From a virus: DNA of 64,000 bases. The notes beneath the pieces were generated by a model. The model saw nothing but the letters and a program-made list of their open reading frames with translations. It did not search any database and was not told the origin of the DNA. A program made the position numbers and the translations under genes. Below, piece after piece: positions 32,535-35,874 of this stretch; positions within the stretch are counted from its first letter, which is position 1, and each line of letters opens with the position of its first letter. Location: the IMG/VR virus record IMGVR_UViG_3300011253_000949, positions 1-64,000 of that record; one strand, given 5' to 3'.

Positions 32535-33283
32535 CTATGCTGCTTCAGAGACAAGGTCTCGGATACTGTCTTCCGAAGCATGATTTGGCAACTCAATTTC
32601 TTGAGCCCAGGTGGGGTAGAAGATGCTCAAGTTACCGCCAAGCTTGACAGTATCATGTGCAATATCAGGGTGTTCTTGCCACTGAACAGCCTTGACCAGA
32701 TGTTTATTCACATACTGCAAGATCTCAATATCATCAGGGATCAGATAATATTGCGCATCATGGATGTGAGCGATCGGTCGGATCTGTAGTCTGTGTTTGC
32801 CTGCACGGACTGTCTTCATGAATTCAGAAGCAGCTCGTGTGTTGAGCAAGCACCAAGATTGACCCAAAGCATTACCGGCAGTACGGCCTTCGGCCTCTGC
32901 CTCATAGGGTGTTGCAGAATTACCGCGGATAACTTGGTGGAGCAATGGTGTGCGAACACGCAAACCAAAGGCAGCACTAACATAGCCTGTACGTGAGGCT
33001 TCATCGAGCTTGGTTGCTACCCACTCATCACTCACTTTGTAGAGCTCGTGATATTTGTGCTCGATCTGCTGAGCGACAACTTTAGAGAAGCCACCTTTTG
33101 CCATCAGGGTGATGTAGGTTCCTTGGTAAGTTCATTTCTCTCATCCCCCCCCTAGTTTACTAGGGGGGGTCAGAGAGTGAGAGCGAAGGTTGGCATCTTG
33201 CTCTCTTGGCGCTCCTCTGAATACAATGTTTTAGTTGAATTAACCCGTTCTTTGTCATGACGTAAAACAGAAATTTCAGTCAC
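32535..33283 (-). CDS. DNA polymerase C-terminal part with 47-nt bypass gap
   Basis: Coding sequence is the join of 33283..33176 and 33128..32535 on the minus strand (233 residues). The first part reads VTEISVLRHDKERVNST...SEERQESKMPTFALT and the second YQGTYITLMAKGG...; together they restore family-A motif B (R-Q-x-x-K-x-P-T-F-A-L-T-Y-Q-G). Motif C is IHDAQYY. The zero frame hits TGA one codon after the ACT at 33178, and the downstream frame has TGA immediately before the ACT at 33131, so ordinary frameshifting cannot join them. Proposed start is GTG 33283, four bases after the HNH stop (termination-reinitiation). Starting at ATG 33104 instead would lose motif B and so polymerase activity. 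Confidence 0.8.
33129..33178 (-). other. putative translational bypass (byp-like) element in DNA polymerase
   Basis: A 47-nt out-of-frame insertion (33129-33175) follows the ACT codon at 33178-33176 and ends with a second ACT (33131-33129). In between are CTC, TGA, then a 10-bp hairpin with seven C:G pairs, TAG/CTA and a TAAA loop (33169-33146), then a GAGAG stretch resembling the internal Shine-Dalgarno that guides landing in T4 gene 60. Removing exactly 47 nt gives a seamless motif B. Matched take-off and landing codons, nearby stop, hairpin and size all parallel the 50-nt T4 gene 60 gap. Confidence 0.75.
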
Positions 33284-33284
33284 T

Positions 33285-33884
33285 TCACTTATGGTTTGGT
33301 TGATTTTTAGCACCATTTATCCTCGCTCTTTGTACGCGTTGAAAACGTAGGGACTCATTTAAATCTCCTTCAATGCCTAGCTCTTTTGCCATGCGTCTAA
33401 GTTTTACAGACAGGTAAGGAACTTTATACGGAACACGTTGTGAAAGTGACCAATACGATTCTCCATTAATGACAGATTGCAAGCAGTCAAAGAATTCATC
33501 TTTGGTCATTCGATTGGTGTATGTCCGTAGTCCAGTATCGGCAGCATGTTGGCTGTTACCTGAAGAGTTTACCCACTCAAGATTGTGTGTTGAGTTATCA
33601 AAACGGTTCCCATTTTTATGGTTAACTTCAGACAATCCTAGAGAATTTGGGATGTGGGCTTCAGCCACTAAACGATGGACGTAGTGTGATGTGCCTTTCC
33701 CATATTTCCACAAACTGACCTGAAGATATTCAACTTGTTTATTTGAAGAAGGACGCAAAATTTTGCCTTTAAAGGGATAGATGGATCCATCACGTCCTAA
33801 TGTTGACCGATCTACTGAACGTACCGTACCAAGCGTAGAGACTTCGTACAGCCCTTCATAATTAACTACCGGTAAGTAGCTCAT
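33285..33884 (-). CDS. NUMOD4-HNH homing endonuclease splitting the DNA polymerase gene
   Basis: One hundred and ninety-nine residues. An N-terminal NUMOD4 pattern (YLPVVNYEGLYEVSTLGTVRS) is followed by the HNH core VHRLVAEAHIPN...EVNHKNGNRFDNSTHNLEWV and a C-terminal DNA-binding region. The ATG lies inside the last codons of the polymerase N-terminal gene (overlap 23 bases) and the TGA lies four bases before the proposed start of the C-terminal part, so the ORF fills the insertion and leaves no room for an intron core. Insertion boundaries share AGT. Analogous to T4 MobE, which split a topoisomerase gene. Confidence 0.85.
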   Translation of the reverse strand: MSYLPVVNYEGLYEVSTLGTVRSVDRSTLGRDGSIYPFKGKILRPSSNKQVEYLQVSLWKYGKGTSHYVHRLVAEAHIPNSLGLSEVNHKNGNRFDNSTHNLEWVNSSGNSQHAADTGLRTYTNRMTKDEFFDCLQSVINGESYWSLSQRVPYKVPYLSVKLRRMAKELGIEGDLNESLRFQRVQRARINGAKNQPNHK

Positions 33885-35874
33885 ACAGTTCTGCTCCTTT
33901 CATTGATTTGCCCAGATACTCTACATCCTCGTCAGAGTGGAAGTAAATGTTGGTGTTACCTACTTTCGCTTTATAGCAAGTTGCATTTTCAGGGGCTATT
34001 TCGATATCAGGCATACGCTCAGCAAAGTAAGACTGAGCTCTCAGACAGTGTCCGTCAAACCCATCCAAGTAGACTTTTAGCTTGTTAGGATCTTTGGTCG
34101 TGAGAGCGGAGATCATGTCTTCGAGAGAGTTGAAATCCAATCCAATCATGAGCCAACCGTCAGGAGCAGTGAAGCAGCTCTTGATCAGCTTGGCATACTT
34201 GGTTCCTGTGGCAGGAATGGTTTGAAGGTTTGGATTTGAAGAGCTCAGTCGACAGGAAACCGTACCACCCAGGTTGAAGTTACCGAAGAGGTAATGGCAT
34301 CCATCTGGACCTTCTACAGCACTCTCCAACGCAGGGATGAAGGTGGTGTAGATTTTGTCCACTGATTTGTAATCCAACAGAGCATTGATGAGATCAATGA
34401 TGTGAGAATCTTCAGTGTAGGCTTTGAGCTTTTCAAGCACTTCAGCTTTGGTGGCTGGTTGTTTGGTTTTGGTTCTTTCAATGACCGGTAGACCAAGATG
34501 TTCATGCAGAAGGTTCTGCAGCTGATCTGGACTGTTGGGATTGAATTTGTCGGGGTAGTCAGCCAGAACAACACGCTTGATTTTAAGCTCATTGTTCCGC
34601 TTCTCTACCCACTTTTCAGCAAGCATGTAGGTGAAATCTTGGATGTGCTGTTCTTGATAGATACGCTCAAGTGCACTGTCTCGATCCACCTCCAAAAGAA
34701 CCTTGGCCTGAGCCACTTGGTTCATATCGATAGACATACCTGTCAGCTGCATTTGGATGATGTCGATGATTGCTGGCTTGAAGATCTCTTCGTAGAGTTC
34801 CAGCTGATCATCTGCCACCATCTTATCCCACCACTTATGGTACACGTACCACGTGGAGCATGCGTCGATGAGATTGTACTCAAGCAACTCTGGCAAAGGT
34901 ATCTTGGTGATGTCCTTGATCTCTTCAACGGCATAGTTGCCGGCAAACTCTTGAGCCTGATCTTTGAGACCCAGCTTGTTACCGGCACAAGTGTTGGTGG
35001 CGAGATAGGAGATGAGCTTGGTATCATGCCAATTTGAGAGCATGATCTCGAGACCATTGAGCAGACCTTTGGTATCTATCAAATGCTCCATGAAGAGCTG
35101 GTAGATTAAGACTGTGGCATCGTAGCTGATGTTGTGAAACAGGAGAGGTTGCTCAAACTCACAAAAGAATTTGACGAGGAGTTTGCGTACAGCCTCACCA
35201 TGAATTCCCATGTCGATGGCAAAGGCAATGCCTTCATGTTGGTTCCAAGCAAAGCTGATGGTGCCAAGACCTGCACTGTAGTGCTTGAGAGAAAAGGCCT
35301 CAATATCACAGGCCAAAGGACATTGCATGTCCATAAGCTTCTGGAGCCATACAGCGATGTCAGCAGGGGTGTGAGGGTACTCAGCAGTCTTGAGGATGTC
35401 ATGCCCTGGTTCTTGGTAGGTGCCTTTCATATGGCTCCACAGAGCGTCTAATGCAGAGGCAATACGTACCCGGGTAGGTGTCGGGTTGTAGAAGACCTGA
35501 CGGTAGTTTGGCACAAAGATGACATTGAACTGACCAGCCATGCTGGCAGGGAACTTGTTTGGAAGGACGTAGCCAAGATAGGGATCTACCTTAGCCACGC
35601 CTACCAGAGTCTTGAAGTAATCGCTGTCAGTGACAAGGATGTACTTGGTGTCGATCTCACTGAGCAATTCGAGCATGTCAGTGAGAAAGACTTTCTGATC
35701 AACTACCTTGGTTTTCTTGCCAGTTGTGTAGAGCTGGTAAGCAATGACATCTTCAGGATCGATGAGAGAAGGGTCGAGGTACTCTTTGGTCATACCTGCA
35801 CTATCAAGCTTGGGAGCCAAAATGCAGATGGGGTAGGTTGAGTTCTCGTGATCTGTAAATGTCTGGAAGTCCAT
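33862..35874 (-). CDS. DNA polymerase N-terminal part, family A (N4 gp39-like)
   Basis: Six hundred and seventy residues. Proofreading exonuclease motifs: ACDIEAFS (Exo I, about residue 190), FHNISYDATVLI (Exo II), YNLIDACSTWYVY (Exo III). Then TVSCRLSSSNPNLQTIP and polymerase motif A LDFNSLEDMI (about 580). It ends artificially at ELLTGS by running into the HNH insertion; the natural protein continues as SEVTEISVLRHD... in the next ORF. With the C-terminal part the total is about 900 residues, close to N4 gp39. Start overlaps the preceding stop (TAATG). Confidence 0.88.
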   Translation of the reverse strand: MDFQTFTDHENSTYPICILAPKLDSAGMTKEYLDPSLIDPEDVIAYQLYTTGKKTKVVDQKVFLTDMLELLSEIDTKYILVTDSDYFKTLVGVAKVDPYLGYVLPNKFPASMAGQFNVIFVPNYRQVFYNPTPTRVRIASALDALWSHMKGTYQEPGHDILKTAEYPHTPADIAVWLQKLMDMQCPLACDIEAFSLKHYSAGLGTISFAWNQHEGIAFAIDMGIHGEAVRKLLVKFFCEFEQPLLFHNISYDATVLIYQLFMEHLIDTKGLLNGLEIMLSNWHDTKLISYLATNTCAGNKLGLKDQAQEFAGNYAVEEIKDITKIPLPELLEYNLIDACSTWYVYHKWWDKMVADDQLELYEEIFKPAIIDIIQMQLTGMSIDMNQVAQAKVLLEVDRDSALERIYQEQHIQDFTYMLAEKWVEKRNNELKIKRVVLADYPDKFNPNSPDQLQNLLHEHLGLPVIERTKTKQPATKAEVLEKLKAYTEDSHIIDLINALLDYKSVDKIYTTFIPALESAVEGPDGCHYLFGNFNLGGTVSCRLSSSNPNLQTIPATGTKYAKLIKSCFTAPDGWLMIGLDFNSLEDMISALTTKDPNKLKVYLDGFDGHCLRAQSYFAERMPDIEIAPENATCYKAKVGNTNIYFHSDEDVEYLGKSMKGAELYELLTGS

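Follow-up and report, generated by a model that had tools for sequence, protein, structure and literature searches.

Among phages, long-distance bypassing has so far rested on one gene, gene 60 of T4, and a 2010 review described it as apparently unique to that gene (PMC3014915). In T4 an essential replication gene, encoding a topoisomerase, is split by an HNH gene into the arrangement gene 39 - mobA - gene 60, and the downstream piece carries a 50-nt element (NC_000866; PMC3014915; PMC5009743). According to the T4 record, the gap follows codon 46 and reads GGA TAG ... GAG ATTATT GGA, and mobA overlaps the upstream gene by 23 bp (PMC2988022). The gap has been proposed to be a degenerate intron that shields against the homing endonuclease (PMC5009743), an idea that was previously without means of comparative testing. 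Several other systems are close in one respect or another. NUMOD4 HNH enzymes, such as I-HmuI, are encoded in group I introns of phage DNA polymerase genes. Free-standing enzymes of collaborative homing cut at intron sites, and mobE, found with nrdA/nrdB and in the split nrdA of Aeh1, is associated there with a ribonucleotide reductase gene in pieces that must assemble after HNH insertion (PMC2988022). In the mitochondria of Magnusiomyces capitatus, 81 short inserts over many genes are tolerated by bypassing, with imperfect codon matches (PMC5009743).

Here, we describe a locus in an N4-like phage from an uncultured source, assigned to Schitoviridae by its polymerase and neighbouring genes. 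The window, that is, the whole stretch of 64,000 nt analysed, belongs to an IMG/VR record of 66,613 bases, in which only one family-A DNA polymerase (PolA) is present, on the minus strand. This gene is interrupted both by an HNH gene and by a 47-nt hairpin gap within catalytic motif B. We consider it probable that the two form a mobile cassette, in which the gap would destroy the nuclease's own target and would itself be bypassed by ribosomes. The locus looks like a second, unrelated case of the T4 'ribosome hop', and, if this is true, a replicative DNA polymerase has its active-site motif translated across a 47-nt hop. A literature search found no paper on bypassing in Schitoviridae polymerases. 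With a whole family of gaps in an unrelated gene, an ortholog of the enzyme encoded in an intron at the same site, and empty alleles that are nearly identical, both the evolutionary model and the minimal rules of bypassing would become testable. The features of the locus are as follows.

33862..35874, minus strand: N-terminal DNA polymerase ORF, family A, with the exonuclease and polymerase motif A (670 aa)
33862..34001, minus strand: foreign 'tail' (IEIAPENATCYKAKVGNTNIYFHSDEDVEYLGKSMKGAELYELLTGS), a conserved split-junction module; homology to uninterrupted relatives ends at 34001
33285..33884, minus strand: HNH homing endonuclease ORF, NUMOD4 + HNH_3 (199 aa); match to I-HmuI (1u3e), E=1.9e-14
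33131..34001, minus strand: donor-derived tract of tail, HNH, head, 23 polymerase codons and gap; 96% identity to L007-L009 on either side
33176..33316, minus strand: start of the C-terminal polymerase ORF, 'head' + RQESKMPTFALT; 47 codons if counted from ATG and 46 if counted from the conserved GTG
33176..33178, minus strand: proposed take-off codon, Thr ACT; CTC TGA comes next
33129..33175, minus strand: 47-nt hairpin gap; analogues in L055, L168 and L170, absent in L007-L012
33129..33131, minus strand: proposed landing codon ACT; translation would resume at TAC (motif B Tyr)
32535..33128, minus strand: remaining polymerase (YQGT..., motif C HIHDA), 197 aa, under purifying selection

A first-pass annotation of this DNA had proposed that an HNH ORF interrupts the polymerase, leaving an N-terminal ORF of 670 aa, and that the insertion has no intron core. 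The interruption is borne out on the minus strand (35874-33862), and an intron core was not detected in the window. However, the N-terminal ORF is not polymerase throughout, since its last ~47 residues (after MPDI) are foreign to uninterrupted polymerases. The C-terminal part had been thought to start at a GTG just past the HNH stop, which is unlikely; it most likely starts at ATG 33316 or GTG 33313, inside the 3' end of the HNH gene, because the 'head' encoded there is conserved in relatives. If the gap is bypassed, the C-terminal ORF would be 47 + 197 = 244 aa long.

The gap begins 110 nt past the HNH stop, which corrects the distance of about 100 nt given for the bypass element in the first-pass annotation. 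It is placed between the Thr and the Tyr of motif B (K..PTFALT^YQG) and reads ACT (CTC TGA CCCCCCCTAG TAAA CTAGGGGGGG GATGAGAGAAATGA ACT) TAC, with a TGA two codons into the gap and stops in all three frames. The hairpin has an upper stem (33169-33160 / 33155-33146) and a lower stem (33177-33173 / 33142-33138), and a Shine-Dalgarno-like GAG (33140-33138) occurs six nt ahead of the landing codon (GAG AAATGA ACT). This pattern is expected 0.00 times in shuffled sequence and is not due to chance; the fold z-score is -7.3 against single-base (mononucleotide) shuffles. A second contig, L006, carries the same arrangement with 2 base differences from the window in 10.6 kb. When 2.9 million viral contigs were searched with the exact and the gapped pattern, the only hairpin copies among polymerases were those in the window's relative and in L055. 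No gap element was found by DNA search of GenBank phages, where 471 of the 485 records have motif B covered to at least 80%. An intrinsic terminator was considered and rejected, a T run being absent after the hairpin on both strands.

As in T4, an HNH gene splits an essential replication gene, the HNH ORF overlaps the upstream ORF by 23 nt, and the downstream piece has a hairpin gap following its first 46 codons (counted here from the conserved GTG), with GAG six nt before the landing. The take-off and landing codons are also matched, here in the window only. The shared GAG spacing and codon-46 position may be chance coincidences, because the position is shared by descent within the window's family. 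On the other hand, the gene is a family-A polymerase here and a topoisomerase in T4, the codons are Thr ACN here and Gly GGA in T4, the stop comes one codon later in the window, and the hairpin is GC-rich and has no sequence similarity to that of T4; here, moreover, there is a family of diverged elements together with an intron-encoded HNH ortholog. By analogy, the window cassette would work like mobA/gene 60, with the sequence relationship undetected. It should be noted that the T4 counterpart is indeed mobA/gene 60 (NC_000866; PMC3014915, PMC2988022) and not mobE, as had been stated in the first-pass annotation. The KKYK motif, a nascent peptide signal, was not seen in the 46 residues before the gap in the window, and an upstream 5' stem-loop like that of T4 is possible but has similar energy in carriers and non-carriers.

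The HNH protein of the window has domain matches to PF07463 (5.3e-11) and PF13392 (7.2e-8), and I-HmuI is its only structural match; it thus shows the NUMOD4 + HNH architecture and the homology to a proven enzyme that are looked for in a homing enzyme. A profile search for this HNH clade recovered L167-L170, full length, and L055 (L166), and GenBank added Acinetobacter phage nACB1, whose HNH protein is 50% identical to that of the window over 98%; no full-length ortholog was found in cellular genomes. In all seven carriers (the window and these six) the HNH lies inside an N4-like polymerase, and the seven proteins form one side of a fully supported branch that separates them from the HNH enzymes found where the polymerase is split at a second site. 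They have in common a C-terminal region rich in invariant residues (GESY.SL..RVPYKVP.LS.K.R), which is likely the DNA-reading part. Because the HNH of L167 stands at 61% identity against 41-46% for its polymerase, the comparison indicates that the HNH moves more than its polymerase gene. The enzyme resembles I-HmuI in being a NUMOD4 HNH protein with a probable target in the polymerase active site, whereas it is free-standing, has no intron and would be protected against by the gap element. It resembles the collaborative homing enzymes in being free-standing and in having a target interrupted by another element, but the interrupter here is a putative bypass hairpin rather than a self-splicing intron, save in nACB1.

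Alignment to uninterrupted polymerases, which the first-pass annotation had suggested, is most informative for L007-L009. These sequences are ~96% identical to the window on both flanks and have a continuous polymerase (MPDIDPTSVESINSIKTLYKAERQESKMPTFALTYQGTY), with 87 nt where the window has ~870 nt. The identity stops sharply at 34001 and returns at 33131, in the last codon of the gap. Between the HNH gene and the gap, 25 of the 69 coding bases mismatch L007, against ~4% in the flanks (P about 8e-18). The diverged exon and the abrupt boundaries therefore indicate that exon, HNH gene and gap came from one more distant donor, and this comparison of alleles shows that the HNH gene and the gap travelled together in one donor tract (34001-33131). 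Such a tract, with an empty allele at 96% flank identity and a co-converted flank, is the co-conversion expected of homing, and it appears to us the strongest direct evidence for joint travel.

The states of motif B in the relatives point in the same direction. Hairpin gaps are present in L055 (45 nt, ACG...ACC, with a UUCG loop), L168 (48 nt, ACC TGC TAG ... ACT) and L170 (40 nt, ACT ... ACA). L167 has a 5-nt insert with a stop and no hairpin (TAGCT, in ACC TAGCT TAT; L167:6600-6760), which may reflect a palindrome that has collapsed, a short hop or a mistake in the sequence, and L169 has a single C inserted after TTT, again with no hairpin; the inserts of L167 (5 nt) and L169 (1 nt) could both be sequence errors. 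In nACB1 the HNH is encoded by a group I intron, whose exons join as GCG T^TA ACA TAT, 2-5 nt from the gap position; its Rfam score of 41 bits is under the gathering score of 50, the matches flank the HNH ORF on both sides, and by eye the 5' splice site can be given a U.G pair. Motif B is thus intact in 0/7 sequences with the HNH clade, compared with 77/78 distinct sequences without it (Fisher p = 1.6e-9, a value that overstates independence as the sequences are related; yet physically the seven disruptions fall into four kinds). The sole disrupted motif B without the clade is that of L052, with the same single-C insertion as L169. Relatives with the HNH gene and an intact motif B, as well as elements with no HNH gene nearby, had been named in the first-pass annotation as cases that would speak against a cassette; both were looked for, with 0/7 clade carriers of the former kind, and every hairpin element has an HNH gene just upstream.

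It could be argued that the gap is an independent insertion, that the HNH enzyme targets another place, e.g., its own insertion point, and that the proximity of the two is a coincidence or hitch-hiking, given the 110 nt between them and the recurrence of the split junction without a gap. However, the association of 7/7 against 1/78, the divergence of the hairpins, which are not one inherited copy, and the location of the intron-encoded ortholog in motif B rather than at the split make this explanation unlikely.

The four hairpins are located at the same point and are diverged, with fold z-scores from -4.2 to -7.3 (mononucleotide shuffles). At positions 6, 8, 9 and 10 both strands of the upper stem have changed and the pairing is preserved, and there is no shared sequence need beyond C5/G5. 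A hairpin at the take-off site, as looked for in bypassing, is therefore indicated by both the fold scores and the compensatory pairs. A stop right after take-off is not seen, the stop being the second codon in the window, L055 and L168 and absent in L170. In all four elements, one Thr codon stands before the gap and another forms its end, with TAY directly after it; the take-off/landing pair is ACT/ACT in the window (the only exact match), ACG/ACC in L055, ACC/ACT in L168 and ACT/ACA in L170. The unequal codons, the displaced or missing stop and the hairpin-free inserts of L167 and L169 speak against the proposed reading. Since the target has one Thr codon there, the second would be maintained by the element, and we infer that it is what peptidyl-tRNA re-pairing would require. 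The gap lengths of 47, 45, 48 and 40 nt correspond to phases 2, 0, 0 and 1, so that only a frame-blind mechanism, bypassing or RNA removal, would restore the same protein in all of them. Stop readthrough or frameshifting was rejected on account of the stops in all frames and the gap lengths in three phases. The noncoding gap has stops and lies inside a polymerase ORF that is conserved downstream, which would be consistent with a product continuous across it. The short mitochondrial inserts of M. capitatus are bypassed with imperfect codon matches as well, but they have no tie to a nearby homing-enzyme target.

Removal of the gap from the mRNA, as a mini-intron of some kind or by processing, would account equally well for the same protein across all three phases, and a true group I intron does sit in the same motif in nACB1. 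Nevertheless, the elements are hairpins of 40-48 nt without an intron core, and the flanking Thr codons and the Shine-Dalgarno-like GAG fit tRNA re-pairing better, so we regard removal as quite unlikely. No Rfam match to the group I intron core (RF00028) was found in the insertions of the window, L055, L168 and L170, and a group I intron in the window was rejected on this basis. We know of no bacterial splicing of 40-48 nt hairpins of such kind.

Downstream of the gap, the polymerase part has accumulated 12 synonymous changes and 1 nonsynonymous change on the window branch since the split from L007, a count for which part of the elapsed time may predate the insertion. Judging from these substitutions, purifying selection acts on the codons downstream of the gap. 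A first pass of dN/dS with L055 in the ungapped register gave meaningless values, apparently from a codon indel, and was ignored. The in-frame stop codons and an in-frame ATG at 33104 might be taken to mean that the polymerase is dead, or that translation of its C-terminal piece is separate, with motif B left discontinuous, and that the phage is replicated by another enzyme. This is very unlikely, considering the single PolA in the record, the 12 synonymous changes against 1 nonsynonymous change, the break in the O-helix that a cut separating the conserved Thr from the conserved Tyr in motif B would cause, and the lack of a nearby ATG in L055 and L168. An assembly or sequencing artefact at a palindrome is hardly credible, for although the contigs are metagenomic and L167 and L169 might be errors, two contigs two bases apart agree exactly, four different hairpins occur at one place with covariation, and intact copies assemble normally.

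We therefore return to the mobile cassette that is bypassed by ribosomes, for which the following mechanism is proposed. Intron-encoded HNH enzymes such as I-HmuI act near the insertion point of their intron. Because the intron of the nACB1 ortholog lies 2-5 nt from the gap position, this points to motif B as the target of the HNH enzyme. The I-HmuI-like protein would recognise DNA at motif B and presumably cleave it, and the gene conversion started by this cleavage would transfer the tract, which reaches from the split junction as far as the gap, to phages without it. The hairpin gap, sitting in the target, would abolish recognition and render the carrier immune, as suggested both by the ortholog encoded in the nACB1 intron and by the disruption of motif B in all seven carriers. 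If the motif were intact, the enzyme would cut the DNA of its own carrier; no such carrier was found. Ribosomes would leave the mRNA at Thr ACN, cross the hairpin and re-pair at the second ACN before the motif B Tyr codon, which may be compared to T4 gene 60 with GGA, and the polymerase would thus be kept working. The N- and C-terminal pieces would be separate proteins, assembling probably via the conserved tail and head.

The expectation in the first-pass annotation that the cassette logic extends to an unrelated gene finds support in the tract transfer, the 7/7 association and the intron-encoded ortholog. A broader proposal, to which we would give slightly less than an even chance, is that recoding elements are a general alternative to introns for the self-immunity of homing endonucleases, and that bypassing arose as a by-product of protecting the target and is commoner in phages than the single T4 case suggests. 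For the one target of this HNH clade, protection would then come from a group I intron in nACB1, from bypass hairpins, of which there are at least four diverged ones, and, in L169, from one extra base at a UUU_C +1 shift site; either the RNA or the ribosome would accommodate each of them.

The split junction seems to be a separate layer. The N-terminal ORF ends in ~45 foreign residues, the tail, and the C-terminal ORF opens with a head of ~25 residues; similar tails and heads occur in split polymerases without HNH or gap (L019, L022, L023, L047, L074, L077, L079, L081 and L084). The HNH gene does sit at the split, as had been claimed, but it need not have caused the split, because a split at the same place exists without any HNH gene. 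The tail is homologous to that at the second split site (LKVY^GYDGHS; hhalign E = 7.9e-9), which has its own HNH clade (L027, L039-L043, L052, Pylas and PMBT57). From these comparisons, the split junction appears to be a module that can move independently and that probably serves the assembly of two chains, and the HNH gene at the split may come and go. Like the nrdA of Aeh1, the gene is in pieces that must assemble after HNH insertion, but no gap element is described there, and here the tail module occurs at two split sites, also without HNH.

The following observations were also made. The tail module of ~45 residues (34001-33862 in the window; also L079, L081, L084, L027 and L111) persists at the two split sites without HNH genes, and other ORFs (100-150 aa) are sometimes found between the two polymerase halves. 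The tail opens with C-Y-K, as intein block A does, and N-S stands at the end of the head; a split intein was rejected, the tail Cys not being conserved (T and A in L079 and L084) and N-S being native to uninterrupted polymerases. In the annotation of Klebsiella phage Pylas (L111:1577-4857), the polymerase consists of two exons joined across an HNH 'intron', but no core reached the Rfam threshold there, and the gene looks like a split gene rather than an intron-bearing one. Conversely, the intron with HNH in nACB1 (L109:2866-6333) is unannotated, and the polymerase is listed as separate genes. L169 (6648 region) and L052 (950 region) are distinct polymerases with the same inserted C (TTT C GCACTTACCTATCAGGG), an insertion that would call for a +1 frameshift at UUU_C; only L169 has the motif B HNH clade. 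Finally, in the polymerase of Escherichia phage Bp4 (NC_024142.2), motif B was matched in two pieces over 146 of the expected 147 bases, which suggests a 1-nt frameshift or a sequencing error.
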